From Carnobacterium iners (GTDB lineage Bacteria > Bacillota > Bacilli > Lactobacillales > Carnobacteriaceae), in the NCBI RefSeq assembly GCF_900177385.1, contig NZ_FXBJ01000002.1, positions 1,244,001 through 1,308,000 of the forward strand: 64,000 nt of DNA. The letters run 5' to 3'. The notes under the pieces are model-generated. The model saw only the letters and a program-made list of their open reading frames with translations. It did not search any database and was not told the origin of the DNA. This document shows positions 43,456 to 64,000 of the stretch, in pieces (position 1 is the stretch's first letter; each line of letters starts with the position of its first letter). The translations under genes were made by a program, and so were the position numbers.

Positions 43456-43480
43456 GAAAATCATCCTTTCTTTATATAAG

Positions 43481-44557: not shown

Positions 44558-44592
44558 TTACTATTTCCTCCTTTGAGATTCAATCGAAATCT

Positions 44593-45570
44593 CTACTTTG
44601 TCAGAACTTTGAGACCTTCACCAGGTTTAGCAATAATTAATTGCTCTGGATTAAATTGTTTTGCAAATCGTGCTTTTATTTTTTCACTATCCGTTAAGCG
44701 ACAAAGAACTTTGACGTTCGGGCCTGCATCCATTGTAAAATAACACGAAATACCTTCTTGGCGCAATTGTCGGACCAGCTGCATTGCAACGACACTATCT
44801 GGTTCCCAATAAGAAAGAGGGGGGTTAGCGCCTAGCATTGTGCCATGCATTTTCATTCCATTGCTTTCAGTTATTTCGCCCATTTTTTGGAAATCTTGTA
44901 AGCGAATAGCTTTTTTTATTTCGATTAAATCGTTAGCCGTACTGTCTAGCCAACCGGTGTAAAAAGGTGAGGTTTCTACTGTGTTTTTCATCCCTTCACG
45001 ACTGGACATTTCTTTTTTACGACTGTTAACAACGACGACAAGCATCCCGATATCCCAATCAGCGTCGTCAATTGGCACAGCGTAAGAATCAGCAGCACAA
45101 GTACCCATCTGCCATTCAACAAAGCCACCATAGATACTACGTGTAGCTGATCCAGACCCTCTACGTGCATAGAGAGACAATTCACGTTGAGTTAATTGAA
45201 GATGACACGCTAAGTTAGCAGCACCTGCCAAAGCAGCCATTCCAGATGCAGAAGAAGCTAGGCCAGCTGCCGTAGGAACAAAGTTGGTACTTTTAATTAA
45301 TGCAGGAGAAGAAATGCCGGCAGGTTTTCTAAATAAATTTAGGAAAGTGCTGACTTTTTCTGTAGCTGTTTTATTTTGTAAACGATCATTTAAGTAAAAA
45401 GTATCGGATTGAAGAGAGTTATCAAAAGTAACCGAAGTATCCGTATAGAAAGCATCTAACGTTAAAGAAAGACTACTACTCGCTGGTAAGATAAGTGCTT
45501 CGTCTCTTTTTCCCCAGTACTTTATCAAAGCAATGTTTGTATGCGCTCGAACTATTTTTTCAGTCATCAT
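44593..45570 (-). CDS. mvaD: Diphosphomevalonate decarboxylase
   Basis: 325 aa. RAHTNIALIKYWGKRDEALILPASSSLSLTLD (about 9-40), ATP loop TAAGLASSASGMAALAGAAN (about 99-118), RGSGSATRSIYGGFVEW and the FTMDAGPNVKVL block are diagnostic of MvaD. ATP-dependent decarboxylation gives isopentenyl diphosphate. Its start overlaps the mvaK1 stop by 11 bp. Confidence 0.96.
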   Translation of the reverse strand: MMTEKIVRAHTNIALIKYWGKRDEALILPASSSLSLTLDAFYTDTSVTFDNSLQSDTFYLNDRLQNKTATEKVSTFLNLFRKPAGISSPALIKSTNFVPTAAGLASSASGMAALAGAANLACHLQLTQRELSLYARRGSGSATRSIYGGFVEWQMGTCAADSYAVPIDDADWDIGMLVVVVNSRKKEMSSREGMKNTVETSPFYTGWLDSTANDLIEIKKAIRLQDFQKMGEITESNGMKMHGTMLGANPPLSYWEPDSVVAMQLVRQLRQEGISCYFTMDAGPNVKVLCRLTDSEKIKARFAKQFNPEQLIIAKPGEGLKVLTK

Positions 45571-49452: not shown

Positions 49453-51009
49453 GTGGCACTAACGACTGATTTAACAGAGGTTGAAAAGATTGTTGTACTG
49501 GATTTTGGGAGTCAATACAATCAATTAATAACACGACGCATTCGAGAATTTGGCGTGTTTTCTGAACTGATTTCTCATAAAGTAACAGCAGAAGAATTAA
49601 GCAAGATGAATGCCAAAGGAATTATTTTCTCAGGTGGACCAATGAGTGTGTACGATGAAGGGGCTTATTCTGTTGATCCTGCAATCTTTAAATTAGGTAT
49701 TCCTATCTTAGGTATTTGTTATGGTATGCAATTGATGACAACGGCATTAGGTGGAAAAGTAGAAGTAAGCTCAAATCGCGAATATGGTAAAGCAGACATC
49801 AAACTAACAGATACCTCTGCACCTCTATTCGGTGGTTTAGCAAGAACAGAAACGGTCTGGATGAGTCACGGTGATTTAGTTACTCAAGTGCCTGTAGGCT
49901 TTGAAGTTGCTGCAACAAGTCTCCACTGTCCAATCGCATCAATGGTTGACTCGAAAAGAAATTTCCACGCAGTCCAATTTCATCCAGAAGTACGCCATAC
50001 TGAACAAGGAAATGCGATGCTAAAGAACTTTGCTTTTTCTGTCTGTGGATGCGAAGGAACTTGGAGTATCAGCAACTTTATCGAAATTGAAATTGCAAAA
50101 ATTCGTGAAACAGTTGGAACTAAAAATGTCTTGTTAGCTCTATCAGGCGGAGTAGACTCAAGCGTTGTTGGGGTCCTATTGCAAAAAGCTATTGGCGATC
50201 AATTAACCTGTATTTTTGTTGACCATGGCTTATTGCGTAAAAATGAAGGCGATCAAGTTATGGATAGCCTAGAAGGCAAATTCGGCTTAAATGTCATCAG
50301 AGTAGACGCTAAAAAACGCTTTATGGATAAATTAATAGGCGTGAGTGATCCTGAACAAAAGCGTAAAATTATTGGAAATGAATTTATTTATGTTTTTGAT
50401 GACGAAGCTACAAAATTAAAAGGCATTGAATTCTTAGCACAAGGAACCCTTTATACAGATGTGATTGAAAGTGGAACAGATACCGCTCAAACGATTAAAT
50501 CACACCATAATGTAGGTGGGCTTCCTGAAGACATGCAATTCAAATTAATTGAACCATTAAATACCTTATTCAAAGACGAAGTTCGTGAATTAGGAATTGA
50601 ATTGGGTATGCCTGAGAGCTTAGTATGGCGTCAACCTTTCCCAGGTCCTGGCTTAGGAATACGTGTACTTGGCGAATTAACAGAAGAAAAAATAGAAATC
50701 GTTCGTGAAAGTGATGCTATTTTACGTGAAGAAATCGCCTTAGCTGGACTAGATCGAGACGTCTGGCAATACTTTACCGTCTTACCTGGTATCCGCAGTG
50801 TCGGTGTGATGGGTGATGGTCGTACGTATGATTACACTGTTGGTGTTCGTGCTGTTACTTCAATTGATGGGATGACAAGTGACTTTGCTCGTCTTCCATG
50901 GGATGTCTTGCAAAAAATATCCGTTCGTATCGTAAACGAAGTGGCGAACGTTAACCGTATCGTATATGATATAACGAGTAAACCACCATCAACTATCGAG
51001 TGGGAATAG
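49453..51009 (+). CDS. guaA: GMP synthase (glutamine-hydrolysing)
   Basis: 518 aa from GTG 49453 (GGGGTG upstream; GTG at 49444 lies within it). Glutaminase triad: Cys in [10 protein letters not shown], His and Glu in [12 protein letters not shown]. The synthetase P-loop is [16 protein letters not shown], and the dimerisation domain contains [17 protein letters not shown] and the C-terminal [12 protein letters not shown]. It converts XMP to GMP. No purine riboswitch is visible upstream. A strong terminator follows. Confidence 0.96.
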
Positions 51010-51015
51010 AATAAG

Positions 51016-51065
51016 AAGAAATAGCCTTACAAGTTTTATAAAAAAACTTGTAAGGCTATTTTTTT
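51016..51065 (+). terminator. Terminator of guaA
   Basis: Perfect 19-bp arms (51019-51037, 51043-51061) with a 5-nt loop and a T-run. Confidence 0.92.
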
Positions 51066-51812
51066 CATCACAAGATTTGGACACCTTTTATTATGAATAG
51101 ATATAAACACGCAACAAAAGCCTCTTTCTATAGCCGTAGATAATATAGAAAGAAAATCGTTTATGTAAGATTAAATCGTGTTTAATGAAAATCGAAGTGA
51201 CAAAGAATGAATATAATTGTATGTGTATCACTAAAACTAAAATACAATCTAGTAAGAAAAAATAATCGTTTGATTGATTTTGATTGAGCAGTTTTTTTAC
51301 TTAAAATAGCTTGTTCAACTATTCTGCTTATTTTTTCTTTCTCAGCTATTGACCGATAGTATTTATCGCGTTCGTATATAGTGAATGTGTCAGATTATTG
51401 TCGCGATTAAAATGAAAGTAGTATCATGTTTTGTTTTTAAATTAACCTCTTTCGAATACTTCATGGTATAATTAAATTACAAAAAAAATAGATAAAAATA
51501 AGTATAATTAGTAGGTTTCTAATGAATACGTTATTGAAACTTTATATAGAATTGCTAAAGGATTTATTTTAACTAAGGGCAAGCATTCTTAATTTATACC
51601 ATGCGAATTTAACGTTGTTTATTGGGAATGCATTAGCATCAATACACCACGGAAATTACATGGTTTTTTTTATTATAAAAACTATAGCAAAACGGTCTAT
51701 TCAGTAAATAGTATAATGAATATATTTAAATTATGATAGAGCTAATATTTACTGAAAAATCATTGAAAGAGTAGCTATGAACTATGAATGAATTTAAGGA
51801 GGTGATAAGAGC
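51066..51812. other. Long AT-rich non-coding stretch before the surface-polymer cluster
   Basis: About 750 bp with no ORF I can support on either strand and no riboswitch that I recognise. A TATAAT near 51713 without a good -35 is the best promoter candidate for the downstream cluster, about 95 bp before its first gene. The size suggests regulatory sequence or a junction scar. Confidence 0.5.
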
Positions 51813-52625
51813 ATGAAATCAAAAATTATCAAAATTGGATTTTTGTTCTTTATTGGCTTGTTATTATTTTTCTTAATAAGACCTTTAGTTTCTGAGACAC
51901 CAGAAAAAACAAAAATAGTTATTTTCGGTCTTGGAAAAGCAGACAGCATTTATATAGAAAGCGAAAATGAAACAATTTTAATTGATGCAGGGTTAAAGTC
52001 AACTAAAGAAGAATTAGCATTAAAGTTAAAAGCAGTAAGAGTGAAAAGATTAGATTATTTAATCTTAACTCATCCAGATAAAGATCATGTAGGTGGTGCG
52101 TCATATATCTTAGATGGATTTGAAGTTGGCAAACTCATTCAGTCCAATCATTTTAAAGATACTAAACGTGAGGCGCGAATCCAAAAAGTTGTAGATGAAA
52201 AAGAAATTGAAAATGTACGACTAACAGAAGACTTATCATTTGAGTTAGGCACCTTGAAAGTTACAATAATTACTCCAGAAGAAAATGACTATAAGGGGGA
52301 TAACGACCATTCTTTAATCACTTTAATAGAAGATGGAGACTTGAATTACCTTTTTGCTGGAGATGCTGAAGAAGAATTATTAGAAGAAACGCTAAAAATT
52401 GATCTTCCTAAGATAGACTTATACAAAGTAGCTCATCATGGTAGAGAAAATCCTAACTCAGAAAAATTTATAGAGAAGATATCGCCCAAGCTATCGGTTA
52501 TCACAAATTCTAAAAAGGATAGTGAGGTAGAAGATTTATTGGAAAAACAAGGCTCCACTGTTATGTATGCGTTTGAAAAAGATATCCATCTCTCTAGTGA
52601 TGGAAAAGAAATAGAATATAAATAG
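51813..52625 (+). CDS. Membrane-anchored metallo-beta-lactamase-fold hydrolase (ComEC C-terminal type)
   Basis: 270 aa. An N-terminal membrane helix (about 6-24) is followed by an exported MBL domain: ILIDAG (about 55-60), metal motif LTHPDKDHVGG (about 85-95), DNDHSLITLIEDGDLNYLFAGDAEEELLE and VAHHGRENPNSEKF. The arrangement matches the extracellular nuclease-like domain of ComEC/Rec2 and free-standing relatives. Substrate unknown: nucleic acid or another phosphoester. It is the first gene of a seven-gene run, 6 bp before the VTC gene, with AAGGAGGTGATAAG ahead of the ATG. Confidence 0.85.
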   Translation: MKSKIIKIGFLFFIGLLLFFLIRPLVSETPEKTKIVIFGLGKADSIYIESENETILIDAGLKSTKEELALKLKAVRVKRLDYLILTHPDKDHVGGASYILDGFEVGKLIQSNHFKDTKREARIQKVVDEKEIENVRLTEDLSFELGTLKVTIITPEENDYKGDNDHSLITLIEDGDLNYLFAGDAEEELLEETLKIDLPKIDLYKVAHHGRENPNSEKFIEKISPKLSVITNSKKDSEVEDLLEKQGSTVMYAFEKDIHLSSDGKEIEYK

Positions 52626-52631
52626 GAGGAC

Positions 52632-53342
52632 ATGATGGCTGATAAAACGCTAAGGGTTTCTAGAGTAGAGTTAAAGCATCAAATAAATTACTTTCAGTAT
52701 CTTTCACTTTCTCATAAGCTGGCAAATGTTTTGGTTGCAGATAAGCATAATGGTGTTATGGGTTATACAATTAGATCTCTTTATTTTGATGATTTTGCAG
52801 ACAGTGATTTTTATGAGAAACTTGCTGGAATTGAAAATCGTAAAAAAATCAGATTGAGAGTTTATAGTCTAAATGCCAAGCAAGCAAAGCTTGAAATAAA
52901 AAGAAAATTTGGCGATAGTCAAGAGAAAAAAACGGTATTAATAGATAAAGCTGACGCAGAAGAGCTAATTAAGCAAAATTATGAAGTACTCAGAAAATAT
53001 GATTCTGAAACAGCACAATCAATTTATCTCATTATGAAATTAAATAGGCTTAGACCGGTTGTTCTAATAGAATACAGGAGAAAAGCCTTTATTCATCAGA
53101 TGAATAACATAAGAGTGACTCTTGATAATGATATTAGATCAAATGAGATTGATTTTGGATTGTTTGATGAAAAAGTTATTATGATACCAACGGATGATTA
53201 TGATACAAATATTTTAGAAGTAAAATACAATAATTTTATATTCAAATATATTACCGATATATTTTCACCTCTTGATTTAGAGAGACAATCTTATAGTAAA
53301 TATATGGTCTCGCGAAGAATATTTGAAAGATATATGGGATAA
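52632..53342 (+). CDS. VTC-domain polyphosphate polymerase family protein
   Basis: 236 aa, one VTC tunnel domain and no membrane helix. The charged tunnel residues expected of the family are present: ELK (13-15), R48 in IRSLYFDD, RLR (74-76), EIKRK (88-92), EYRRKAF (147-153), RVTLDNDI (161-168), LEVKY (195-199) and the SKY end motif (222-224). In yeast Vtc4 such residues bind ATP, metal and the growing polyphosphate chain. Intact residues suggest real catalysis. It lies between the MBL gene (6 bp) and the DUF4956 gene (14 bp), the typical neighbour of bacterial VTC proteins. Confidence 0.88.
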   Translation: MMADKTLRVSRVELKHQINYFQYLSLSHKLANVLVADKHNGVMGYTIRSLYFDDFADSDFYEKLAGIENRKKIRLRVYSLNAKQAKLEIKRKFGDSQEKKTVLIDKADAEELIKQNYEVLRKYDSETAQSIYLIMKLNRLRPVVLIEYRRKAFIHQMNNIRVTLDNDIRSNEIDFGLFDEKVIMIPTDDYDTNILEVKYNNFIFKYITDIFSPLDLERQSYSKYMVSRRIFERYMG

Positions 53343-53356
53343 GGGGGATTAATTAG

Positions 53357-54022
53357 GTGAGAGAAGTTCTTTATAATTTATTATATGAAAATTCAACAAC
53401 TGTTTCACCGATATTTGTGATTCAAAATATGAGCGTAGCTCTCGTATTAGCACTTATAGTATGTATAACCTACAAGATAACATATAGCGGCGTGTCTTAT
53501 AGTAAAAAATTTAATACATCCTTACTAATGATGAGTCTGATAACGACTATGGTTATGAGTATATTAGGTAGTAGTCTAGCCTTATCTTTAGGGATGGTTG
53601 GGGCTTTATCTATAGTAAGGTTCCGTACGGCTGTCAAAGATCCAAGAGATACAACGTATATATTTTGGGCTATTTCTATTGGTTTAGGAGCTGGATCATC
53701 TAACTATTACATTATTATAATTGGAACGATATTTGTTGCAATTATTACTGTAATAGGCGATATAACCTTCAAAGGAAAAGAAGTGTATTTAGTCATTGTA
53801 AGAGGAGATTTAACTAGTCTAGAAGAGGTAAGATCTGCTTTATTTAATACTTATAAAGCTGGCAAACTTAGAGCTGAAACAATAACCGATGACTATGCCG
53901 AGATTGTTTATCAAGTCATGCTAAAAGATAACAGTTCTATTGGCGAATATGAAAAAATTAAAAAAATAGAAGGTGTATATTTCGTGAATATGGTTTCTAA
54001 AGATGGTGAAACTTTAGGATGA
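53357..54022 (+). CDS. DUF4956 family membrane protein
   Basis: 221 aa. Four helices in the N-terminal two thirds (about 21-42, 55-75, 105-130 with the conserved GMVGALSIVRFRTAVKDPRDTTYIFWAISIGLGAG block at 79-114) and a soluble C-terminal domain (about 140-221). The GALSIVRFRTAVKDP motif is the family signature. Function is unknown; members occur beside VTC and CotH genes in many bacteria. It overlaps the CotH-type gene by 4 bp. GTG start with GGGGG upstream. Confidence 0.88.
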   Translation: MREVLYNLLYENSTTVSPIFVIQNMSVALVLALIVCITYKITYSGVSYSKKFNTSLLMMSLITTMVMSILGSSLALSLGMVGALSIVRFRTAVKDPRDTTYIFWAISIGLGAGSSNYYIIIIGTIFVAIITVIGDITFKGKEVYLVIVRGDLTSLEEVRSALFNTYKAGKLRAETITDDYAEIVYQVMLKDNSSIGEYEKIKKIEGVYFVNMVSKDGETLG

Positions 54023-55521
54023 AGCATACAAAAATTGTTAAGAAAAAGAAAAAGATGGTTATCTTATTGTATTTGGGCCTAATGATAGCTGGTTTTTTTT
54101 TAGTTATCAATTTGTACCTAAATCCAACTAATGCAGATAATAGTGTTACAGAAGACAGCCATTCTGATTTTACTGAATTGAGAGAAGAGAAGAAAAACAA
54201 TTTGCCTATCATGGTAATAGATACAAATGGCCAAGTAATAGAGTCCAATCTTGAAAAAAAAGAAGTGGAAATAAATGGAGTAGAAAGAGAAGTCTTTCAG
54301 CCTTCTAAAAAATACCAAGTGAGTATGAAATTATATGAACCCAATTTAGCTGGTTATACGGTTGTAGATAAGAATGCCACGCCAACAGTTGAATCAGATT
54401 TAGTTATAAATGTGAGAGGACAATCGTCTTTAAGGTATAAGAAAAAACAATATACAATTAGGTTAATAGATGAGTACGAACTAGAAAACCCTCAAGAATT
54501 ATTAGGAATGAATATTCATGATAAGTGGGTTTTAAATGGTATGTATAGCGATAAAAGTCTAATTAGAAACTATTTATCTTACAAAATGGGGAGAGATACT
54601 ATGGAATACGCTCCTGATACAAGATTTGTTGAACTCTATATGAAAACTACTGACGAAGAGATAAACTTTCAAGATGATTATATGGGAGTCTATCTGTTAA
54701 CTGAAAAAATCGAACGAGATGAAAATAGAATTGCTATCGATAAGAATAATGATAAATACAAAGATATCAGTTTTATTATTTCAAGAGATAAAATAAAGTA
54801 TGAAGATACTGTATTAAAAAGCGATTGGAACATGTTAGAAGATGATTTTATAGTAGATGAAAATAATAATATTAAAGCGAGGACCGTTTTTACGACAACG
54901 TATCCTAGCAAGAGCAACATGACTGAATTGTATGAACAAGGGATAATAGATTATATTAATAAGTTTGAATATTCTTTGAGAGCTAGCAATTTTGATGATA
55001 AAAGAGAAGGATTTAGAAAATATGTAGATGTTGAATCATTTATAGATTATGCCATTATAAATGAAATTACTAAAAACGTAGATGGTGGAGAAGTGAGTGC
55101 TTACTTTCACAAAGATATAGGCGGCCTTCTTAACGCAGGCCCTATCTGGGATTTTGATCAAAGTCTGGGTAATACTCTTTTGGAAGAAATGAATGAACCA
55201 ACTGGTTTTCGTATGGTAAACATTATTTGGTATGAAAGACTATTTCAAGATGAAGCCTTTGTAAAGAGATATAAAACGAAATATAGACAATACAGAAACA
55301 CAATCTGGTCAGATAAGAATATTGACAAATTGATTGACGAAGCGATACTTGAATTAGGGCTAAGTGCAGATAGAAATAGAAGGAAATGGTATATACAAGA
55401 TTCTAAACAAGATTATGAGAAAGAAGTAGAGGACATAAGAGTTTTTCTGAAAGAAAGGTTTTCTTGGATGGATGAAAACATTAATCTTTTAAATAGAATC
55501 AAAGAAAATCCTATAGAATAG
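54019..55521 (+). CDS. CotH kinase-like protein, membrane-anchored
   Basis: 500 aa. A basic N-terminus and one membrane helix (about 12-32) put the rest outside. The CotH core runs from about 125 to 420: NVRGQSSLRYKKKQYTIRL, GMNIHDKWVLNGMYSDKSLIRNYLSYKMGRDT, YMGVYLLTEKIERDENRIAID, and GPIWDFDQSLGN with the metal-binding DFD. Spore-coat CotH is an atypical protein kinase; secreted homologues are also found in non-spore-formers like this one. It may phosphorylate an outer-envelope protein or glycan. It overlaps the DUF4956 gene by 4 bp. Confidence 0.87.
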   Translation: MKHTKIVKKKKKMVILLYLGLMIAGFFLVINLYLNPTNADNSVTEDSHSDFTELREEKKNNLPIMVIDTNGQVIESNLEKKEVEINGVEREVFQPSKKYQVSMKLYEPNLAGYTVVDKNATPTVESDLVINVRGQSSLRYKKKQYTIRLIDEYELENPQELLGMNIHDKWVLNGMYSDKSLIRNYLSYKMGRDTMEYAPDTRFVELYMKTTDEEINFQDDYMGVYLLTEKIERDENRIAIDKNNDKYKDISFIISRDKIKYEDTVLKSDWNMLEDDFIVDENNNIKARTVFTTTYPSKSNMTELYEQGIIDYINKFEYSLRASNFDDKREGFRKYVDVESFIDYAIINEITKNVDGGEVSAYFHKDIGGLLNAGPIWDFDQSLGNTLLEEMNEPTGFRMVNIIWYERLFQDEAFVKRYKTKYRQYRNTIWSDKNIDKLIDEAILELGLSADRNRRKWYIQDSKQDYEKEVEDIRVFLKERFSWMDENINLLNRIKENPIE

Positions 55522-55530
55522 GTGATATAA

Positions 55531-57672
55531 TTGAACATTAGAAAATTTACTCTCGTCTCGATAACCTCAGTGATACTGATAGCACTTTTGTTTTTACTTT
55601 CTTATCAAAGGTATTTTTCAGATAACCTGAATACGGAATCTGAAAGTTTATCTAATTATTCTAGAATTGTAAAGACCGATGGAAAAGATATAAAAATCTA
55701 TAAAGATGCTGAGTGGGAAACCATTAAATTAAAAGGAGTAGAGTTGAATTCTTTCAAGCCAGGGCATACTAGATTTGAAACAAGTACTCCTAAAAATGAA
55801 ATAATAAAATGGTTAGATGAAATAGGAAAGATGAACGCAAATGTTATAAAGGTTCCATACATCCAGTCTCCTAGCTTCTACGCTGCTATTTATGACTATA
55901 ATCTTAATAGAGAAAAACCGATTTATGTGATGCACGAGATTATGTTAGATGAAAAAGCGGTATTAGAAAAATATGATGCTTTTAATGAAAAGATTCTTGA
56001 TAATCTAAAAAAAGATGTAAAGAAAACAATAAATGTAATAAACGGGCAAGCTCTAATCCTGAGTAATAAAAGAAGTCACAGAGGCCTTTATCTAAAAGAT
56101 ATTTCTAAGTATAATTTAGGCCTTATAATCGGGACAAATACAAACCCAGAAATAGTGACACTTACAAATGAAAGGCACAAAGAAAAAAAAGAATACGATG
56201 GAAAATATTTTTCAGTCAAGGATGGCAGTGCATTTGAAGTTTTTATAGGAGAAGTGTTAAATTTTTCTGCTAAGTATGAGATTGAAAAGTATGGAAAATC
56301 TAGTCTTTTGTCTTTTTTGACATCTGCTGAAACAGATTCATTTGAATATAAACATGAATCTAATTTAACAAAACATGCGAATATAAATATTGAACATATC
56401 ACCCCAAAAAAAGGCAATAATCTGTTTGTGAGTTATAAATACCATATAGCTTCTTTAGATTTCTTAGAATATGAATATGAAGAACATGAAAAATCGTTAG
56501 GTAACGGCACATCTGTAGTTCAAAAACATTTGGATAGATTAAATAATTTTTATGAAATACCGATAGTTATTTCTGATACAGGAATTTCATCTTCTAGGGC
56601 TAAATCAAAAATAGATCAAATTGACGGTTTTGATAGAGGAGGATTTTCAGAAAAAGAACAAGGTGAAAGAATCGTTGATTTGTTAGAAAAAATAAATACA
56701 TCGGGTGCAGCGGGGGCAATAGTAAGTTCTTGGCAAGATGATTGGACAAGATTAACAAGCTTTGGTTTGGTTGAAGATTATTTAGACTTAAATAATTCAA
56801 GCTACTGGCATGATTTACAATCTAGTGATGAAAGTTTTGGTTTTTTGAAGTTCGAATCTGGTAACGAGGAAGATAAAGTATATCTTGATGGTAATTTTTC
56901 GGACTGGAAAGATACAAAGACTATCTTGGAAGAAGATGAGATAAATCTCAAAATAAAAAATGATTTATCTCATCTTTATATACTGATAGAGAAGGAGAAC
57001 TGGTCATTAACTGAAGACTTACTTTACCTCGGGATAGATGTTACTCCTTTAAGCGGTTCTAATAAATGGGAAGATGAAGCTGAATTTTCTAATGATGCAG
57101 ATTTTATAATAAAATTACAAGGATACAACGAATCTAGAATAGTAGTAAATGAAAGGTACAACCTATTCAATTATCTCTATAAATATTATGCCAATATAAT
57201 AGAAAAAAAGAGCAAAGTACCTGATAAAGATAGTGAAAAATTTGAAGCTATTTACCTACTAAATAGAAAGAAATTTTATTTGAAAGATAACAATCGAGTA
57301 TTGTTTCCAATTTATTATGAAACTGGCAAATTAGCGTATGGAATAGATAACCCAACGAATGAAGAATTTAATTCTAAAGTGGATTTTAATAAAGAAGGAA
57401 ATAAAGTTGAAATCAAGATTCCGTGGTCATTATTAAATGTAAAAGATCCATTACAAAGAAAAGCTTACGGAGATTTTTACTCAGATGGTTTAGATAGTCA
57501 ACAGAAATTAGAAAAATTAGGATTTTCTATCAATTATAAAGGTAAAGAAAAAAATATTATAACAAAAGAATCATCGTATAATATAGAAAAAATAAAAAAA
57601 ATGGTTTACTTTGAAAGATTAAAAGATTCTTACTATATAGTAAAAGATTATTGGGCTGAAAACCCTGAATAA
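55531..57672 (+). CDS. Membrane-anchored protein with glycoside-hydrolase-like barrel and CBM9-like C-terminal domain
   Basis: 713 aa. A single N-terminal helix (about 8-24) is followed by a region (about 65-440) that looks like a GH-type TIM barrel: KGVELNSFKPGHTRFE, MNANVIKVPYIQSPSFYAAIYDYN, PIYVMHEIMLDE, IPIVISDTGISSSRA and AGAIVSSWQDDW. The region about 475-700 starts VYLDGNFSDWKDTK and contains LYILIEKENWS, like CBM9 or DOMON carbohydrate-binding sandwiches. A catalytic pair cannot be assigned safely. It is TTG-initiated with TAGGTGATATAA before it. Its role is probably processing or guiding the polymer made by the GT2 enzyme downstream. Confidence 0.65.
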   Translation: MNIRKFTLVSITSVILIALLFLLSYQRYFSDNLNTESESLSNYSRIVKTDGKDIKIYKDAEWETIKLKGVELNSFKPGHTRFETSTPKNEIIKWLDEIGKMNANVIKVPYIQSPSFYAAIYDYNLNREKPIYVMHEIMLDEKAVLEKYDAFNEKILDNLKKDVKKTINVINGQALILSNKRSHRGLYLKDISKYNLGLIIGTNTNPEIVTLTNERHKEKKEYDGKYFSVKDGSAFEVFIGEVLNFSAKYEIEKYGKSSLLSFLTSAETDSFEYKHESNLTKHANINIEHITPKKGNNLFVSYKYHIASLDFLEYEYEEHEKSLGNGTSVVQKHLDRLNNFYEIPIVISDTGISSSRAKSKIDQIDGFDRGGFSEKEQGERIVDLLEKINTSGAAGAIVSSWQDDWTRLTSFGLVEDYLDLNNSSYWHDLQSSDESFGFLKFESGNEEDKVYLDGNFSDWKDTKTILEEDEINLKIKNDLSHLYILIEKENWSLTEDLLYLGIDVTPLSGSNKWEDEAEFSNDADFIIKLQGYNESRIVVNERYNLFNYLYKYYANIIEKKSKVPDKDSEKFEAIYLLNRKKFYLKDNNRVLFPIYYETGKLAYGIDNPTNEEFNSKVDFNKEGNKVEIKIPWSLLNVKDPLQRKAYGDFYSDGLDSQQKLEKLGFSINYKGKEKNIITKESSYNIEKIKKMVYFERLKDSYYIVKDYWAENPE

Positions 57673-57689
57673 AATAAAAAATAAAGGAT

Positions 57690-58847
57690 GTGAAAGTTAT
57701 GACTGTTTATACTGCATATTTTAGTTTTATCGTGTTTGTATTGCTACTGCTTTTAATAAACTCATATTTTTTAATCTCTTTGAATATTGAAAAAAGAAAA
57801 TACAATGAAATAGAAAAGCGAAAAGAAGGAATTAAAGAATCGCTCATAAATATTCTTGAAAATAAAGCAACAAATAAAATAGAAGAAATAAATAAGCTTA
57901 AAGACTGTTTTAATAGAAAAACGGATATCCAAGCATTTCACAAAGCAGTTAAAGAATGCTATGAAGACAACCTCTATAAAGATGAGCTGTCACACTTATT
58001 GGAAGAAATTGTAAATATTAATAAGATAGTTAAAAGTGGAATTGTTAGAAAAGAATATAAAGAGAGCTATGCGCTATATTTACTTTCTGAATTTAAAATG
58101 AGAAATGAAGAAACTGGAGAGTTTGCTTTATCTGCTCTAGACAAAAATTCTTTGCATGTTAGAAACAATGCTTTGAACGTGATAAATAAAAACAACGATG
58201 TAACGATTATGATGAAAGCAATAGAATTAATTAATAGCAAAAAACATTATTTTAATGATAAGACAATTATAGATTTTTTAGATAATTATGATGGCGATAA
58301 GGACACGCTCGATAATGAAATATATCTACAAATGGATAGATATAACACAAATCTAAAAAAAAATATTATTAGTCATTTTATAAATACAACTAATGGAACT
58401 CAAAAGATAAAAGATAAAATATTAAATTATCTTCAACAAACAAATGAAAAAGAAATAGTCATTTCTAGTACCAGATATTTTAATAAGATCATAGATCAAA
58501 GATCCAAAAATAGCATAGTAGAAAATATAGAAAGCGAAGACTGGGAAGTAAGGGCAGTAAGCGCAAGAGTAATTCGCAACTATCCTAGTGAACAAATTAT
58601 AGAAAAACTCAAAAACACACTTACAGATGTAAACTATTATGTTAGATACAATAGTGCAGAATCATTTTTAAAACTAGTAGATAAAAAAGCCGTTATAGAA
58701 GAGGCGATTAAAAATGAAGATCGATTTGCAAGAGATATATTATTGTACTCTATGAATACAAGAGGAATAATAACAATCGAAGACTATGAGACTCTAGTAA
58801 TAAAAAATAAAGAGGCTGAAAATATGAAAGGAAGTGCTTTGATATGA
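57690..58847 (+). CDS. Membrane-anchored HEAT-repeat protein
   Basis: 385 aa. One N-terminal helix (about 6-27), a basic coiled segment (about 30-70), then helical repeats; the C-terminal third has clear HEAT units, e.g. NIESEDWEVRAVSARVIRNYPSEQ and TLTDVNYYVRYNSAESFLKLVDKKAV. It probably acts as a cytoplasmic scaffold for the synthase, since its topology would place the repeats next to the GT2 catalytic domain. It overlaps the GT2 gene by 4 bp, supporting joint action. ATG with AAGGATGTG upstream. Confidence 0.8.
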   Translation: MKVMTVYTAYFSFIVFVLLLLLINSYFLISLNIEKRKYNEIEKRKEGIKESLINILENKATNKIEEINKLKDCFNRKTDIQAFHKAVKECYEDNLYKDELSHLLEEIVNINKIVKSGIVRKEYKESYALYLLSEFKMRNEETGEFALSALDKNSLHVRNNALNVINKNNDVTIMMKAIELINSKKHYFNDKTIIDFLDNYDGDKDTLDNEIYLQMDRYNTNLKKNIISHFINTTNGTQKIKDKILNYLQQTNEKEIVISSTRYFNKIIDQRSKNSIVENIESEDWEVRAVSARVIRNYPSEQIIEKLKNTLTDVNYYVRYNSAESFLKLVDKKAVIEEAIKNEDRFARDILLYSMNTRGIITIEDYETLVIKNKEAENMKGSALI

Positions 58848-60268
58848 ATATAGTTGATATTATCTATGCGATTAACGTATTTTTCTTTTTTTATATGTTT
58901 CTGTATGCATTAGTATTCTTTGCAACGACAATATTTTCAGCATTCAACTTAGATGATTTTTTTAAAAGGAAAAACCATATGAGCCAAACAGTCATAAATA
59001 ATCGAGCTAACTTCATTCCGATATCTATTTTAGTTCCAGCGTATAATGAAGAAGTTACAATAGTAGACAGTATAAAATCTCTTTTAAACTTAGATTACCC
59101 GACATACGAGATTATTATTGTAAACGATGGTTCAAAAGATAAAACTGTAGAAACTGTAATTGAAACTTTTAACTTAAAAAAAGTTTTAAAACCTTATCGA
59201 AGATTAGTTGAATCTAATGAGGCCTTAGGAATATATGAAGGCGGAGAAAAAATTAAGATCATTTTAGTGGATAAAGAAAATGGTGGTAAATCGGACGCCC
59301 TTAATATGGGAATAAACGTAAGTTCGTTTCCGACATTTTTATGTGTAGATGCTGACTCAATGTTACAAGTTGACGCTCTTCAACGTATTGTAGAGCCGTT
59401 TCTAGAAGATGATACAACTGTTGCTGTTGGAGGAAACATAAAAATATCAAATCATGTAATCATAGAAGAAGGTAAGGTTTTGGAGGTAGAGAGTCCGAAA
59501 AAAGCTTTGGTTATCTTCCAAATGATAGAATATCTTAGAGTGTTTTTAAATTCTAGAATATCTTTAAATGGCATAAATGGGAATTTAATCATTTCTGGTG
59601 CCTTTGGTTTGTATAACAAACAGGCGATAGTAAATATTGGTGGATACACAAATGGACTTATGGGGGAAGATATGGAAATTGTAATGAAAATCCATTCTTT
59701 CTATAAAAAAAACAAAATCCCATATAAGACTTCTTATGTTCCAGATGCTATTTGTTGGACACAAGTACCAGAAGACTTAAACACGCTTAAAAGACAAAGA
59801 AGAAGATGGCATGTAGGTCTTGGACAGAGCCTAAAAATGCATAAATATATGTTCTTGAATCTTAAGTATGGATTAGTCGGAATGATATCATTCCCTTACT
59901 TCCTTTTATTTGAATATATAACACCTTTTTTAGAGGTGCTAGGCATGGTAACCATTACCTTATCTTACCTGCTTGGAATTATAAATTTGAATTTCTTTTT
60001 GTTTTATTTACTGATCTATATGGGTTATAATATTATTGTTTCTATGATTTCTATAATTATAGAAAGATATATGTTTAGTGCTACTACTAGCACAAGGCTT
60101 ACTCTAAAACTTATTTTTTATAGTATCGTAGAATCTTTTGGGTATAGACAAATGATGTCTCTTTTTAGAATTGGAAATATATTTAAACGAAGCCACCAAT
60201 GGGGAGAAATGACCCGTAAAGAAGGGAAAAAAGCAGAAGTTGACCATAGCGTAGAAGTTCCAAAATAA
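58844..60268 (+). CDS. Processive family 2 glycosyltransferase, membrane-bound
   Basis: 474 aa. A helix at about 8-32, a cytoplasmic GT-A domain (about 58-330), and about four C-terminal helices (340-450). Catalytic elements are all present: NDGS (94-97), VDAD (168-171), GED (274-276) and QRRRW (318-322). These mark synthases of the cellulose, hyaluronan and PNAG type, which polymerise and export a beta-glycan. No PilZ domain is fused. The product cannot be read from sequence. It is the last of the seven genes; a terminator follows. Confidence 0.9.
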   Translation: MNIVDIIYAINVFFFFYMFLYALVFFATTIFSAFNLDDFFKRKNHMSQTVINNRANFIPISILVPAYNEEVTIVDSIKSLLNLDYPTYEIIIVNDGSKDKTVETVIETFNLKKVLKPYRRLVESNEALGIYEGGEKIKIILVDKENGGKSDALNMGINVSSFPTFLCVDADSMLQVDALQRIVEPFLEDDTTVAVGGNIKISNHVIIEEGKVLEVESPKKALVIFQMIEYLRVFLNSRISLNGINGNLIISGAFGLYNKQAIVNIGGYTNGLMGEDMEIVMKIHSFYKKNKIPYKTSYVPDAICWTQVPEDLNTLKRQRRRWHVGLGQSLKMHKYMFLNLKYGLVGMISFPYFLLFEYITPFLEVLGMVTITLSYLLGIINLNFFLFYLLIYMGYNIIVSMISIIIERYMFSATTSTRLTLKLIFYSIVESFGYRQMMSLFRIGNIFKRSHQWGEMTRKEGKKAEVDHSVEVPK

Positions 60269-60352
60269 AAATCAATAAAGTATTGCTTACTGGAGAACTC
60301 AAACGATTTACGTTTAAGAATATAGGTAAATTTAAAGGCTAAATAGTTATAC

Positions 60353-60392
60353 AAAGAACCATTCAAATTAATATTTTGAATGGTTCTTTTAC
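60353..60392 (+). terminator. Terminator of the seven-gene cluster
   Basis: Perfect 15-bp arms AAAGAACCATTCAAA (60353-60367) and complement (60375-60389), a 7-nt loop and a short T-run. Confidence 0.85.
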
Positions 60393-60408
60393 TTCTTTTA
60401 AAAAAAGC

Positions 60409-61400
60409 GGCTCTTTGTCGAATCATGTCGATGAATCCAGAATTATAAAACAATACAATGACTTTATAAAACTTATTCAACTAAATGATGAATGAATCAA
60501 TTTTTAAGTTCGAAGTGTATTGCAATGAAATTAAAATCTTGATTTTAAATTTAAAGAAGCTTCAAAAAACGAAGTTAATTTTTTTGAAACTTTTAGTGCA
60601 TTGTCTGTCGCCCCAATAGGACCGTTATTGTGTCGATATTTTAAACTCGTTTTTATATAAGAGGACAACCTTTTAGAGGCTTCATTTAAGTAATCAAGAG
60701 AAAGATTATAATCCTTTTGAGCAAACGCATAAATTAAATTCTGATATAACTTGTAACTAACTTTAAATTCTTCGCCTAGCTTCAATAATACCCGCTTGAC
60801 TTTTATGCTTTTAAACAAACGTCGATAAGTATAAGAATAGCCATTTAAATGAGACTTTCTTTTTGGAATTAGTTTCCAGTAATATTCAAGTTTTCTAAAT
60901 CCTCCGAATTTGATGTACGATAGTGATTCATTATTTTGATTCTAGCTTTATCAAGAGAACGACCAATTAACTTTACAAGATGAAAAGTATCTATAATAAT
61001 TTTAATTTTAGGAAATAGTTCATAAATCAATGTTAAATAAGCCATATTCATATCTATCATACTAGTTCCTACTACTGCACAAGTCTGCTGGGATTAGTCA
61101 ATAAAGTTATTCCATAAGGAGTTTAATCGTCTATCTGACAAAATATCTATGATAGCGTGCTTTTGAATCGATGTAAATGAAACTTACTTTTTTATTTACA
61201 GACTGAAAGTCATCAAAAATAAGTGATTTGATAATTTGAACGAAATTGATTACCGATTTCTACTAGTATTTTAGATGCCATCAAGAGACTAAAGTACTAT
61301 TTTTTCGCTAAGTTTTTTTCTAATGTTTTATCTTTATCTTCTACTACACAATCGTAGAATTTTCTTTTTTCCTCCTATAATTTGTACACCGATTGGTTGT
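60409..61400 (-). mobile_element. Decayed ISL3-family element
   Basis: GGCTCTTTGTCGAATCATGT at 60409 looks like an ISL3 terminal repeat. Minus-strand pieces of an ISL3 transposase follow: a C-terminal part at 60531-60818 (LYQNLIYAF and NNGPIGATDNALKVSKKL), a middle part at 60869-61060 (MIDMNMAYLTLIYELFPKIKIIIDTFHLVKLIGRSLDKARIKIMNHY), and beyond that, in broken frames, DDFQSVNKKVSFIYID around 61170-61230. Several frameshifts and stops separate them. No matching right end was found, so the upper boundary is approximate. Confidence 0.75.
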
Positions 61401-61803
61401 ATAGGATAGAGTACCAAATAGCATTTTTAACAAGTATCATTTTACTTATTTTTTTCATGAAAAATTTCTGGAAAGGTATTATTTTTATCTTTCAAATCAA
61501 GTATAATTCAAATATAATGAGAATGAGATAGCTTAGGACCTCCTTAGATTTGGTTGTGGTAACTATTATTCTATCGGATTTTCTTATATATTTCTATTTT
61601 TTTACATAAAAATAGTCGTTAGTGATTTTTATATTTCCAACATTATAAGTTATACATCTAAAAAAGTCTGTCTCTTTAATTTTTAGATGTTTCAAGTATA
61701 ATAAAAGCAAGTTAAGGTAATTATTTTTGATAATAAATTCAAGAATTGTTTTGCTAAAGAGTTAGCTATTTTTTAATGTGCAGGTGTATGTGTGTTACAA
61801 ATC
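61400..61803. other. Non-coding stretch between the ISL3 remnant and the acetamidase gene
   Basis: About 400 bp of AT-rich sequence without a supportable ORF on either strand. Confidence 0.5.
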
Positions 61804-61831
61804 TTGACATTTTGAGCAATTTTGATAAAAT
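61804..61831 (+). promoter_or_regulatory. Promoter upstream of the acetamidase fragment
   Basis: Consensus TTGACA (61804-61809), 16-bp spacer, TAAAAT (61826-61831), followed by a leader of about 180 nt. Confidence 0.55.
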
Positions 61832-62014
61832 TACACAAACAACTTTTAAACTAAGTAAGGATAGTAAAGTAACCTCCTTAGTTTACTTACAAAGCGATTT
61901 AAAAAATAACGCTAGCATAGTGTGTAGTTAATTTAATTTCTTCTGTCTATGAGCTTTTGAAGATTTTACAGATATAAGGCCAGTTAAACGATTAATTTTA
62001 ATAAGGAGGCAGTT

Positions 62015-62421
62015 ATGACTAAGATACATGAATTAAAAGCAACAGTCGAGACAGTGAAATGGGGATATTACGATAATTCTTGGAAGCCTGTGTTAACGAT
62101 TGAATCAGGGGACTTCGTTGATATTGAAGCATTGAATCATCAGTCTGGAGATGCACCAGATTTATTATTTGACGAGGCTATCAAAGAAATTTACGATGTT
62201 GTACCTAGAGATATGGGAGATCATATTATAACTGGGCCAATCTATGTTAAAGATGCTGAGCCTGATGATATTATTGAAATGAAGATTATCGAAACAAAAC
62301 CTAGAATGAACTATGGATCAAATGTTATAGCGAATTGGGGTAATTTATCCAATAGTTTTAATCGTGAAGAATCTATCTTTATTTACGAAGTGGATCCAGA
62401 ACAAGGAATAACTTATCCTAT
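62015..62421 (+). pseudogene. Acetamidase/formamidase family protein, truncated by an IS21-type element
   Basis: About 135 codons of host sequence: SGDFVDIEALNHQSGDAPD, then VVPRDMGDHIITGPIYVKDAEPDDIIEMKIIETKP and ESIFIYEVDPEQGITYP. The family is normally above 300 aa and continues after this point; here the frame runs into IS sequence (VCGRIKVQNSAA) and stops at 62461. The C-terminal half with further catalytic residues is missing, or lies beyond the IS outside the window. GGAGG precedes the ATG. These enzymes hydrolyse short amides to ammonia and acids. Confidence 0.82.
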
Positions 62422-62553
62422 TGTTTGTGGCAGAATAAAAGTACAGAACTCTGCAGCGTAAGAGTACAGAGTTTTGCAACGAAAAAATCATTGCCAGCCA
62501 CCCGATAAACCTTTAATGTTTTAGTGTCGAAGCTAAACATGGAGGTTGGAAGG

Positions 62554-63966
62554 ATGCTGACAATGACTGATATTAATACTATCAAAAATTTGCGAAATAA
62601 TCACGGACATTCGGTAAATAAAATTCGAAAAGATTTAAAAATTAATTGGAGAACAGCTAAAAAATATGCTGATGGTGATCAAGTACCATCAGAAACGATT
62701 CGTTTAAAAAAAGGAATGATGTATGAAGAAAAATGGGGAGATATTGTAAGTTCTTGGTTGGCAGAGGATGCCAGATTGACGAAGAAAAAACGACGGACGA
62801 ATACCCAATTCCATAAGGAATTAAAGGAAATCGGTTTTAATGGTTCTTATCGTACCGTTTGTATGTTTGTTCAAGAATGGCATGTGACCCACGTTGATGG
62901 TGGTGTGGATAATGGATTTGAACGGTTAGAGCACCCTCCTGCCGATGCGCAGTTGGATTTTGGAACCATGGAAGTGGAACACAAAGGTGAGTTTAAAGAT
63001 GTTAAAGCACTTGTTATGACCTTTCCATACAGTAATGCAGGATTTGCAGTAGCTCTTCCATCCGAAAATCAAGAGTGTTTGCTTATTGGAATGAAACAAC
63101 TTTTTGTGCAAGCTGGCGGTGTTCCAAAAAATATCCGCATTGATAATATGTCAACGGCTGTAAAGAAGACGAAATCAAAGTTCGAAAAAGCCCAGTTGAC
63201 CGATGGTTTTCAACAGTTTGCCAATCATTATGGATTTAACACACAAGTTTGTAATCCAAGGAGTGGGAATGAAAAAGGAAGCGTAGAAAATAAGGTTGGT
63301 TATGTGCGCTATAACTTCTTCCCAACTGCTCCTAGAATGATTGATTACAAATCATTGAACAAAGACCTTTATACTCAGCTGATTAAAGATAGAAATCGCC
63401 AACATTATGAAAAGAACTCACTAATAGAAGAGTTATGGACAGATGAAGCACAAGCCCTTTGGGCACTTCCTGAAACAGATTATCCAGTAAGAAGAGAACT
63501 AATTGTTACTACGAATAAGTATAACGAAATTCTATTGGATAATACAAAAACCCATATTTCGCGTGCGAGAAATCACTCCTTACTCACTGCTTATCTGACA
63601 TGGGATAAGTATAAAATTGTTTCTGGAAATGGTGAAATCATTGGTGAAGGGGATCGTCCGTATATGGGCAATTCTCGTAGAATCCCTTGGGAAATAATTA
63701 TGAAAGATTGGCGCCGAAAATTGAGTACTATTCATTATTCAAGATATTGGAAATATTTGCCTGGTAGAATCCAACATTACTTAAATACAGATGATTTGCA
63801 CATGCTTTACGACAGAGTCTCAGAAATTTCAAGCTTGCTGGCACACAATGACATGGCAACCATTAATGAACGATTCTTTGAACTTATTGGGAAACAAGCT
63901 GAAGACTCTGATCCGTATCAAGTTAGCTGGTCTGCTTACGACAAACTTACAAAGAGGGCAAACTAA
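62554..63966 (+). CDS. istA: IS21-family transposase IstA
   Basis: 470 aa from ATG 62554 with GGAGG 8 nt upstream (the open frame begins at 62524). The N-terminal helix-turn-helix is HSVNKIRKDLKINWRTAKKYADG; the integrase core has DAQLDFGTMEV (first Asp), KNIRIDNMSTAVKK (second Asp) and PRSGNEKGSVENKVGYVRYNFF (Glu). It seems intact. Confidence 0.92.
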   Translation: MLTMTDINTIKNLRNNHGHSVNKIRKDLKINWRTAKKYADGDQVPSETIRLKKGMMYEEKWGDIVSSWLAEDARLTKKKRRTNTQFHKELKEIGFNGSYRTVCMFVQEWHVTHVDGGVDNGFERLEHPPADAQLDFGTMEVEHKGEFKDVKALVMTFPYSNAGFAVALPSENQECLLIGMKQLFVQAGGVPKNIRIDNMSTAVKKTKSKFEKAQLTDGFQQFANHYGFNTQVCNPRSGNEKGSVENKVGYVRYNFFPTAPRMIDYKSLNKDLYTQLIKDRNRQHYEKNSLIEELWTDEAQALWALPETDYPVRRELIVTTNKYNEILLDNTKTHISRARNHSLLTAYLTWDKYKIVSGNGEIIGEGDRPYMGNSRRIPWEIIMKDWRRKLSTIHYSRYWKYLPGRIQHYLNTDDLHMLYDRVSEISSLLAHNDMATINERFFELIGKQAEDSDPYQVSWSAYDKLTKRAN

Positions 63967-64000
63967 ATGAATAATCAATTGGACGATTTATGTAAGTCAT
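63967..64000 (+). CDS. istB: IS21-family helper ATPase IstB, N-terminal fragment at window edge
   Basis: ATG follows the istA stop directly (TAAATG). The visible start reads MNNQLDDLCKS. Identity rests on the fixed istA-istB order of IS21 elements, since only 11 codons are visible. Confidence 0.7.
   Translation, partial: MNNQLDDLCKS

Follow-up and report, generated by a model that had tools for sequence, protein, structure and literature searches.

A probable exopolysaccharide operon of Carnobacterium iners that joins VTC, DUF4956 and CotH genes to a processive glycan synthase

Introduction

Two described systems come close to the seven-gene operon analysed here: the accessory gene set of Gram-positive Pel operons and the NELoc-2 locus of Clostridium perfringens. 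The operon lies at 51813-60268 (+) in a 64,000-nucleotide stretch of Carnobacterium iners (NZ_FXBJ01000002.1, 1,244,001-1,308,000). The whole stretch is called the window, and all positions are window coordinates. In order, the operon encodes an MBL-fold protein, a VTC-domain protein, a DUF4956 membrane protein, a CotH-type kinase, a TIM-barrel protein (hereafter the barrel), a HEAT-repeat protein and a GT2 synthase. The VTC-DUF4956-CotH genes are referred to as the trio, and the barrel-HEAT-GT2 genes as the core.

Genes for cotH, a poly-phosphate polymerase, DUF4956 and DUF4832 are described as contiguous with the Pel operons of streptococci and clostridia, and the same passages suggest that Pel is regulated by protein phosphorylation (Whitfield 2020, PMC7112168). 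In Streptococcus intermedius, where the accessory set is SIR_1591-1594, deleting SIR_1592 or the cotH-type SIR_1594 lowers Pel-dependent aggregation, according to the sections of a 2025 paper that treat these genes (PMC12345266). SIR_1592 is probably the DUF4956 gene, judging from its MgtC/ACT description there and from the gene set in PMC7112168. The same sections state that the three-gene arrangement was not found outside Pel in that paper's analyses. In the Pel accessory set the same three genes thus adjoin an exopolysaccharide synthase operon. The passages on Pel operons with this set also describe a TIM-barrel glycosidase gene, and the window, too, has a TIM-barrel gene. Pel relies on PelDEFG, whereas the window operon has a GT2 enzyme with a HEAT partner.

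The second system, the pathogenicity-associated NELoc-2, was compared by its published table alone and not by sequence. In Table 4 of Lepp 2010 (PMC2879425), CP4_0463-CP4_0468 are a VTC protein (230 amino acids, aa), a 'tubulin/FtsZ' protein (222 aa), CotH (497 aa), a hypothetical protein (685 aa), a HEAT protein (377 aa) and a glycosyl transferase with a 'chitin synthase' match (466 aa). The corresponding genes of the window stand in the same listed order and encode 236, 221, 500, 713, 385 and 474 aa. Because order and lengths match, NELoc-2 is taken as the same kind of operon, with DUF4956 misnamed tubulin/FtsZ there. NELoc-2 also carries a resolvase gene, a gene for a sigma factor and another VTC-'tubulin' pair, and no MBL gene appears in Table 4; a 2024 farm survey places a polysaccharide deacetylase gene at NELoc-2 in the portion bearing on the locus (PMC11677781). 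In the relevant portions of Lepp 2010, of that survey and of a 2016 RNA-seq study (PMC4983038), NELoc-2 is mentioned without a product or a polysaccharide-operon label. The corresponding portions of PMC8250860 and PMC7356697 contain nothing on this operon, and a literature search of open-licence papers found no described product.

This kind of operon is already known by gene list, but not by function. Given NELoc-2 and the published Pel accessory set, the joined arrangement proposed in the initial annotation of the window is not new as a list of genes. New here are the wide distribution of the arrangement, its relation to a core otherwise of cyclic di-GMP (c-di-GMP) type, a loss of hydrolase residues that goes with the trio, and the independence of the trio from Pel. 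NELoc-2 and the Pel accessory set can be brought under one idea, a transferable polyphosphate/kinase cassette that serves different synthases. To our knowledge, little is known of what CotH kinases do outside spores or of the functions of bacterial VTC proteins; the Carnobacterium described here, whose single operon is compact and whose genome has no PelG match, offers a simple setting in which to study them.

Conservation of the operon

As the initial annotation had described, the operon consists of seven intact open reading frames (ORFs) on one strand. They are separated by 6, 14, -4, 9, 17 and -4 bp, so that the largest gap is indeed 17 bp, while the 4-bp overlaps number two (DUF4956/CotH and HEAT/GT2) and not three. 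The MBL, VTC, DUF4956, CotH and GT2 labels are supported by Pfam, and the HEAT match falls just under its cut-off (Table 1).

A barrel profile was used to collect further loci. Matches came from 16 of the 295 genomes surveyed in the order, from 23 of 398 in the phylum and from 27 of 391 in the class to which a Tissierella metagenome-assembled genome (MAG; G690) belongs. Another 16 loci came from genome contigs and three from plasmids. The genome surveys scored some first-look candidates per genome, so misses are possible. Rows L001-L009, L033-L036 and L071 are short or duplicate copies, such as L009, which is the same as L014, and were dropped. In total, 84 loci were read, the window included; L013 and L070 have no barrel gene, which leaves 82 scored loci. 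A locus was called trio-less when fewer than two trio genes lay on the strand of the barrel gene within 9 kb (60 loci).

The order VTC-DUF4956-CotH-barrel-HEAT-GT2, on one strand and mostly with tight gaps, was found in 18 of the 84 loci, including loci from distantly related Bacillota, and every locus holding all six genes keeps it (18/18). Since the six-gene order recurs in this way, the arrangement is not due to chance, and the trio and the GT2-HEAT-barrel set do co-occur elsewhere, so the neighbourhood search leaves their association, as originally proposed, standing. In 11 of the 18 operons HEAT and GT2 overlap, with a junction of -4 or -1. Exceptions to an uninterrupted array are an extra ORF in L078 and genes split into two pieces in L086 (cotH) and L083 (GT2). 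The extra ORF, at L078:4213-7349, is unlabelled, encodes 584 aa and separates VTC from DUF4956; apart from it, the six-gene operon is intact.

The conserved unit comprises six genes and not the seven first proposed. An MBL gene was found in 2/84 loci (the window and L015), the stretches of L014 and L044 beginning too near the operon to tell, and the MBL gene was therefore rejected as a member of the conserved core; it is an accessory gene. A further MBL match lies near a trio set without a barrel gene at L139. The MBL protein of the window has one N-terminal membrane anchor and is predicted from hydropathy to lie outside the cell. Its best NCBIfam scores are 154.8 bits for an AHM-type MBL model (cut-off 590) and 101.9 bits for ComEC/Rec2 (cut-off 190).

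In 59 of the 82 barrel loci, genes for HEAT and GT2 lie no more than 9 kb away from the barrel gene. These comprise 40 trio-less loci, 18 with the full trio and one with two trio genes. The full trio stands beside the barrel gene in 21/82 loci; in one more, L014, the contig begins with the second trio gene, and two of the three are present. Barrel-HEAT-GT2 is the conserved core, common to trio operons and c-di-GMP-type loci and often found beside diguanylate cyclase genes: a GGDEF gene lies within 9 kb in 27 of the 40 trio-less core loci. Cyclic di-GMP is the usual switch of such synthases. In the Carnobacteriaceae genus g3, a PAS-GGDEF-HD-GYP gene is located between the barrel and HEAT genes. 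Loci L010 (same family), L016 (Thermobrachium) and L017 (Trichococcus, with HEAT and GT2 fused in one protein) have the same core as the window, with barrels 31-34% identical to its own, but no trio; a GGDEF or GGDEF/HD-GYP gene lies beside the barrel gene.

A tree of 60 GT2 rows (20 with the trio, 40 without; IQ-TREE quick search, midpoint root, with long branches such as L032, L046 and others) placed all 20 trio rows in one 22-row group (SH-aLRT 99). The other two rows of the group, L081 and L095, come from contigs that start at or inside the barrel gene, where the state of the trio is unreadable. An either/or scheme in which the trio replaces c-di-GMP control fitted the first 24 annotated loci and failed in the larger set. 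It was dropped because a GGDEF gene within 9 kb accompanies nine of the 18 loci in which trio and core are complete, and because the GGDEF label switches 13 times across the GT2 tree.

The synthase and its HEAT partner

The GT2 protein carries the motifs of a processive synthase, as initially read: D95, DxD (169-171), GED (274-276) and QxxRW (318-322), all invariant in 19 of 19 aligned rows. With hydrophobic segments at 6-24 and 353-406, it has the full pattern of D, DxD, (T/G)ED and QxxRW with flanking membrane helices. The nearest curated family, the PgaC/IcaA poly-beta-1,6-GlcNAc (PNAG) synthases, scored 150.8 bits against a cut-off of 422.3, and the CelA family, used as the test for a BcsA cellulose synthase, scored 36.1 against 699.1. 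Matches in the PDB include cellulose and hyaluronan synthases. The operon thus differs from a PNAG (pga/ica) locus in a synthase score below the cut-off and in the absence, among its seven proteins, of any Pfam or NCBIfam match to a polysaccharide deacetylase or to PgaD/IcaD. The HEAT protein is predicted to be cytosolic and membrane-anchored, since positive charges follow its single N-terminal hydrophobic helix.

A barrel protein without the glutamate pair

The barrel has an N-terminal anchor, is predicted to be extracellular by hydropathy, and is beta-rich in its C-terminal half. It had no Pfam match at E<=1, and a profile sequence search of solved structures gave none at E<=1. Two of 18 barrel relatives matched GH113 (best E 4.5e-4), whereas CBM9 was matched at E<=0.01 in none of the 18, so that the CBM9-like part of the original label has no profile support.

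An AlphaFold2 model built from 14 rows (pLDDT 80.4, pTM 0.81) had a GH157 enzyme as its best PDB match in Foldseek (E 1.4e-11), although the whole-length TM-scores were low (0.35/0.46). The next matches were other glycoside hydrolases of what we take to be the clan GH-A type. VIA-align, applied to Foldseek's list only, superposed the model on LaGH157 (9g4n) with a Z-score of 30.3 and an rmsd of 2.7 Å over 312 residues. LaGH157 (PDB 9g4n, 9g5g, 9fz9) is the closest structure, yet the identity is 14%. Enzymes of clan GH-A have two catalytic glutamates, at the ends of strands beta4 and beta7. In an 18-row alignment, most barrel relatives have GxEWDP after beta4 and [AS]EFG in beta7, and the fold together with the clan GH-A rule marks these glutamates as a putative catalytic pair. 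The barrel of the window shares the fold and differs from LaGH157 in lacking the pair: it reads GTNTNP, with Asn203 just past strand 195-200, and SDTG, with Asp349 in strand 345-350. It is probably a pseudo-hydrolase, as hydrolysis is unlikely with Asn203 and Asp349 at the two putative catalytic places, and the initial proposal that the barrel processes the polymer finds no support in this copy.

Among the best barrel copies of each locus, to which all residue counts refer, loss of hydrolase residues occurs only where the trio is present. The beta4 glutamate is kept in 59/59 readable trio-less loci against 8/22 trio loci, and the beta7 glutamate in 59/59 against 16/22. Both are kept in 58/58 trio-less loci readable at both places, L010, L016 and L017 among them, against 8/22. 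Seven of the 60 trio-less loci (L027, L045, L069, L072, L081, L095 and L096) have less than 3 kb readable upstream; without them, 53 of 53 have both glutamates. The loci are not independent, eight barrel pairs being at least 90% identical, so that Fisher tests of these counts are descriptive only. A second copy at L030 (1033 aa), which has an Asp at beta4 and no trio, runs against the pattern. L018, with CotH on the strand of the barrel gene and DUF4956 on the other, keeps both glutamates and was counted as trio-less; reclassed as a trio locus, it would bring the count to 9/23. Two barrel-type genes lie side by side in L030, L021, L076 and L077.

Asp349 is found at the beta7 place in all four members of the sub-group of the window (the window, L014, L015 and L044), and in the trio loci L031 and L060, with Thr/Ser and Gly/Ser, both carboxylates are absent. 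Because the replacements differ among trio loci (Asn, Asp, Gly, Thr, Ala), the sequences suggest that the glutamates were lost more than once; on the GT2 tree, four changes suffice to explain the losses.

The VTC, DUF4956 and CotH proteins

Single-sequence phmmer searches of solved structures gave no match for CotH and one weak match for VTC (8erw, E 0.008), taken as spurious, so profiles were used for both. The VTC profile matched yeast Vtc4 (3g3q, E 1.4e-11) and the CotH profile matched spore coat protein H (5jd9, E 6.5e-14), which bears out the two family names originally given. The VTC protein is soluble and predicted by hydropathy to be cytosolic; R11, E13, K15, R48, R74, R76, E88, K90, R150, R161, D165, E196 and K198 are invariant in 14/14 aligned rows, and these tunnel residues are presumably the catalytic ones. 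The CotH protein has an N-terminal anchor and is predicted by hydropathy to be extracellular. Its D355 and D378, the expected catalytic and metal-binding aspartates of a CotH kinase, are invariant in 15/15 aligned rows and 23 residues apart, as are D228 and D251 of B. subtilis CotH, D251 being presumably the second residue of that pair. The D228Q form of B. subtilis CotH is called inactive in the passage of PMC7821199 that deals with it.

The DUF4956 model (pLDDT 72.9, pTM 0.52, four rows only) consists of helices and a C-terminal alpha-beta domain resembling ACT and MgtC C-terminal domains; the tail gave weak Foldseek matches to the MgtC C-terminal domains 2lqj (E 1.1e-3) and 7qa5 (E 2.6e-3). 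Helices and tail agree with the description of SIR_1592 in the relevant section of PMC12345266. DUF4956 was also considered as a VTC-channel look-alike, which was dropped, as no Foldseek match reached E<=1e-3 and the best were these ACT/MgtC-C-like ones, to the tail.

The trio outside Pel loci

DUF4956 gave 74 matches in 64 of the 398 phylum genomes. Sixty of the 74 loci were read; the window and G457 (= L060), both with a barrel gene, were excluded, and 12 weaker ones were left unread. A same-strand VTC gene is found no further than 5 kb away in 58/60, and CotH in 28/60. VTC-DUF4956 therefore looks to be a fixed pair with a varying third partner, presumably a surface protein. For 10 of the 32 loci without a CotH match the next gene, mostly a long one, was typed, nine encoding a Cthe_2159 carbohydrate-binding protein and one an S41 peptidase. 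Often, as in L109, L110, L114, L120, L122, L126 and others, VTC-DUF4956 is flanked by an opposite-strand pair of about 225 and 410-470 aa, which from sizes alone may be a two-component system. The genome of L070, a Tissierella MAG, has a second VTC-DUF4956 pair with no CotH match in the stretch read.

PelG was found above its cut-off in 3 of the 64 DUF4956 genomes, and within 5 kb of DUF4956 in two (G399 and G689). The genome of the window has no PelG (PF16933) match at E<=0.001, other Pel genes not having been searched, and by this marker the operon is not a Pel biosynthetic locus. The trio occurs outside Pel loci, contrary to the 2025 statement in the cited sections of PMC12345266.

Horizontal movement

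A barrel match was obtained in 6 of 18 genomes of the family, including that of the window and a weak broken fragment (G010). Among the four further genomes available for the genus, three (G004, G005 and G006) have none, and their guaA genes, 91-95% identical at the protein level, are followed by nothing of the operon. In the fourth, G007 (Carnobacterium sp. HKST-UBA02, a MAG), the operon (L014) lies on a separate short contig that starts before the other genes, with five genes open and 69-92% identical. The GuaA protein of the window is 97% identical to that of G007, 75% to that of G228 and 59% to that of G690, the Tissierella MAG (residues 206-521 covered), whereas its GT2 protein is 88.6% identical to that of L014 (G007), 85.1% to L044 (G228) and 82.0% to L015 (G690). 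The operon is closer than guaA across families and classes and further apart within the genus, a pattern in these sequences that indicates that the operon has moved horizontally, with the limits that the Tissierella copy is on a MAG contig that could be misbinned and that L044 is from a two-contig genome.

Compared with L015, VTC, DUF4956 and GT2 are 78-85% identical, CotH, barrel and MBL 57-63%, and HEAT 51%. A division between inside and outside proteins was considered as a clue and dropped, as HEAT, predicted inside, diverges most. The six-gene operon of L031 is on a plasmid of Planococcus maritimus (NZ_CP059541.1), near a gene annotated as Qat anti-phage system QatC; this plasmid is a possible vehicle for the spread of the operon.

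Proposed function and alternatives

The locus is very probably a synthase-dependent exopolysaccharide operon, judging from its sequences; with the roles proposed here for the barrel and the trio, the probability of this reading is put at roughly 0.6. The GT2 enzyme would likely polymerise and extrude a beta-linked glycan, with the HEAT protein as its likely cytosolic partner or scaffold. The barrel, whose active site is intact in relatives, would likely act here as a glycan-binding or guiding pseudo-hydrolase. The trio is best read, from its families, as a polyphosphate/kinase cassette, whose steps are less certain. VTC may make polyphosphate from ATP in the cytosol; DUF4956 may be its membrane partner, a pore or, in view of its ACT/MgtC-like tail, a ligand-sensing gate; and CotH may phosphorylate a surface partner or the glycan as it is exported, which would give the polymer a charge or let the phosphate state switch its export. 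We infer in this way a path from VTC, DUF4956 and CotH to phosphate on the polymer or on a surface protein. The MBL protein would be an optional outer-face hydrolase.

Several points weigh against this reading. The barrel gene was found in 0/60 of the DUF4956 stretches, so VTC-DUF4956(-CotH) does not need this synthase, and the GGDEF genes within 9 kb in nine of the 18 full trio-plus-core loci mean that the trio is not a simple replacement for c-di-GMP. The Foldseek search with the DUF4956 fold (E<=1e-3) gave nothing resembling the VTC channel. The phosphate steps are drawn from family names, and CotH might phosphorylate a protein and not a glycan. In S. intermedius, the SIR_1592 and SIR_1594 deletions are described in the relevant section as reducing, not abolishing, Pel aggregation (PMC12345266). 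A bolder version, which we consider improbable, would have VTC and DUF4956 act together as a synthase-exporter that supplies polyphosphate to the outer face. There CotH, lacking ATP, would draw its phosphoryl groups from it to modify the nascent glycan or its partner, and the product would be a phosphorylated exopolysaccharide. In this version one portable cassette would serve two unrelated synthases (Pel and GT2), and in its presence the hydrolase, no longer needed, would decay into a pseudo-enzyme.

The strongest competitor, though still a tentative one, is regulatory: the trio would leave the polymer untouched, CotH would phosphorylate a protein such as the barrel or the outer loops of the synthase to switch export, DUF4956 would sense a small ligand through its ACT-like tail, and VTC would adjust phosphate or polyphosphate pools. 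The weak ACT/MgtC-like match of the DUF4956 tail and the suggestion of Pel regulation by protein phosphorylation in the passages cited (Whitfield 2020, PMC7112168) speak for it, but no target of CotH is known, and with the GGDEF genes a second switch is often present already. An unlikely alternative keeps the barrel active, its Asn/Asp pair supporting a changed chemistry (e.g. transglycosylation with Asp as nucleophile) by which the operon trims its own polymer. The retention of Asp349 throughout the sub-group, and of both glutamates in 8/22 trio loci, would fit such an enzyme; the Asn at the acid/base place in the window, and the lack of any carboxylate at either place in L031 and L060, would not.

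It is less likely still that two unlinked functions, a surface glycan synthase and a general polyphosphate or stress module, merely share a transcript. Each half does mostly occur without the other, the trio genes in the DUF4956 survey and the core in its 40 trio-less loci (against 18 with the full trio and one with two genes), but the six-gene order is kept in 18/18 loci, the trio rows group together on the GT2 tree, and the trio also attaches to Pel, two of its genes affecting Pel output in the sections cited (PMC12345266). Least probable of all is a passenger island, a locus of recent arrival in a hot spot that follows guaA, perhaps silent or in decay. Its GC content (0.28-0.31 over 52-60 kb, against 0.32-0.41 over the first 52 kb), the missing barrel gene in three of the four other genus genomes, where guaA is followed by nothing of the operon, and a transposase downstream would all suit this history. 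All seven ORFs are intact, however, and in the congener MAG five genes are still open, with 69-92% identity, which implies selection. The reading as an exopolysaccharide operon with a polyphosphate/kinase cassette is preferred.

Features and flanking DNA

The features of the operon are given in Table 1. The initial annotation had ended the operon with a terminator, and a hairpin is indeed present; its role as the terminator is plausible, not proven, as the scan gave six hairpin sites against 4.7 expected by chance. Sigma-70-like promoter matches in 50-64 kb showed no excess over chance (67 against 72.7 expected). A riboswitch or other known RNA upstream of the operon was considered and dropped: the ten Rfam matches at E<=2 in 50500-64000 include none at the gathering score of its family.

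Table 1. Coordinates of the operon genes and adjoining elements in the window.
Feature	Position	Strand	Support or remark
Upstream intergenic region, presumed promoter region	51010-51812	+	about 800 bp, no ORF >=80 aa
MBL-fold protein	51813-52625	+	Pfam PF00753 5e-19
VTC-domain protein	52632-53342	+	Pfam PF09359 1.3e-37
DUF4956 membrane protein	53357-54022	+	Pfam PF16316 2.1e-14
CotH-type kinase	54019-55521	+	Pfam PF08757 2.1e-51
TIM-barrel protein, 713 aa	55531-57672	+	predicted structure, GH157-like fold
HEAT-repeat protein	57690-58847	+	PF13646 27.2 bits, cut-off 27.7
GT2 processive glycan synthase	58844-60268	+	Pfam PF00535 6e-24
Intrinsic-terminator-like 15-pair hairpin, T-containing tail	60353-60389	+	84 nt past last stop

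Right after guaA (window 51010; congeners L103-L105), the ORF lists differ in each of the three congeners, without operon genes, and the stretch looks like an insertion hot spot. Just past the operon, at 60531-61400 (-), are broken pieces of a transposase of ISL3 type by eye, with a 95-aa ORF that has no Pfam match at 1e-5. At 62015-63966, a 148-aa ORF resembling by eye the start of an acetamidase/formamidase (no Pfam match at 1e-5) is directly followed by a 480-aa rve-domain transposase (32.4 bits, cut-off 32.6; by eye of IS21 type), which may have interrupted it. On the other side, mevalonate-pathway-type genes (GHMP kinase, diphosphomevalonate decarboxylase and an FMN-dependent protein) are located at 42388-45570 (-).

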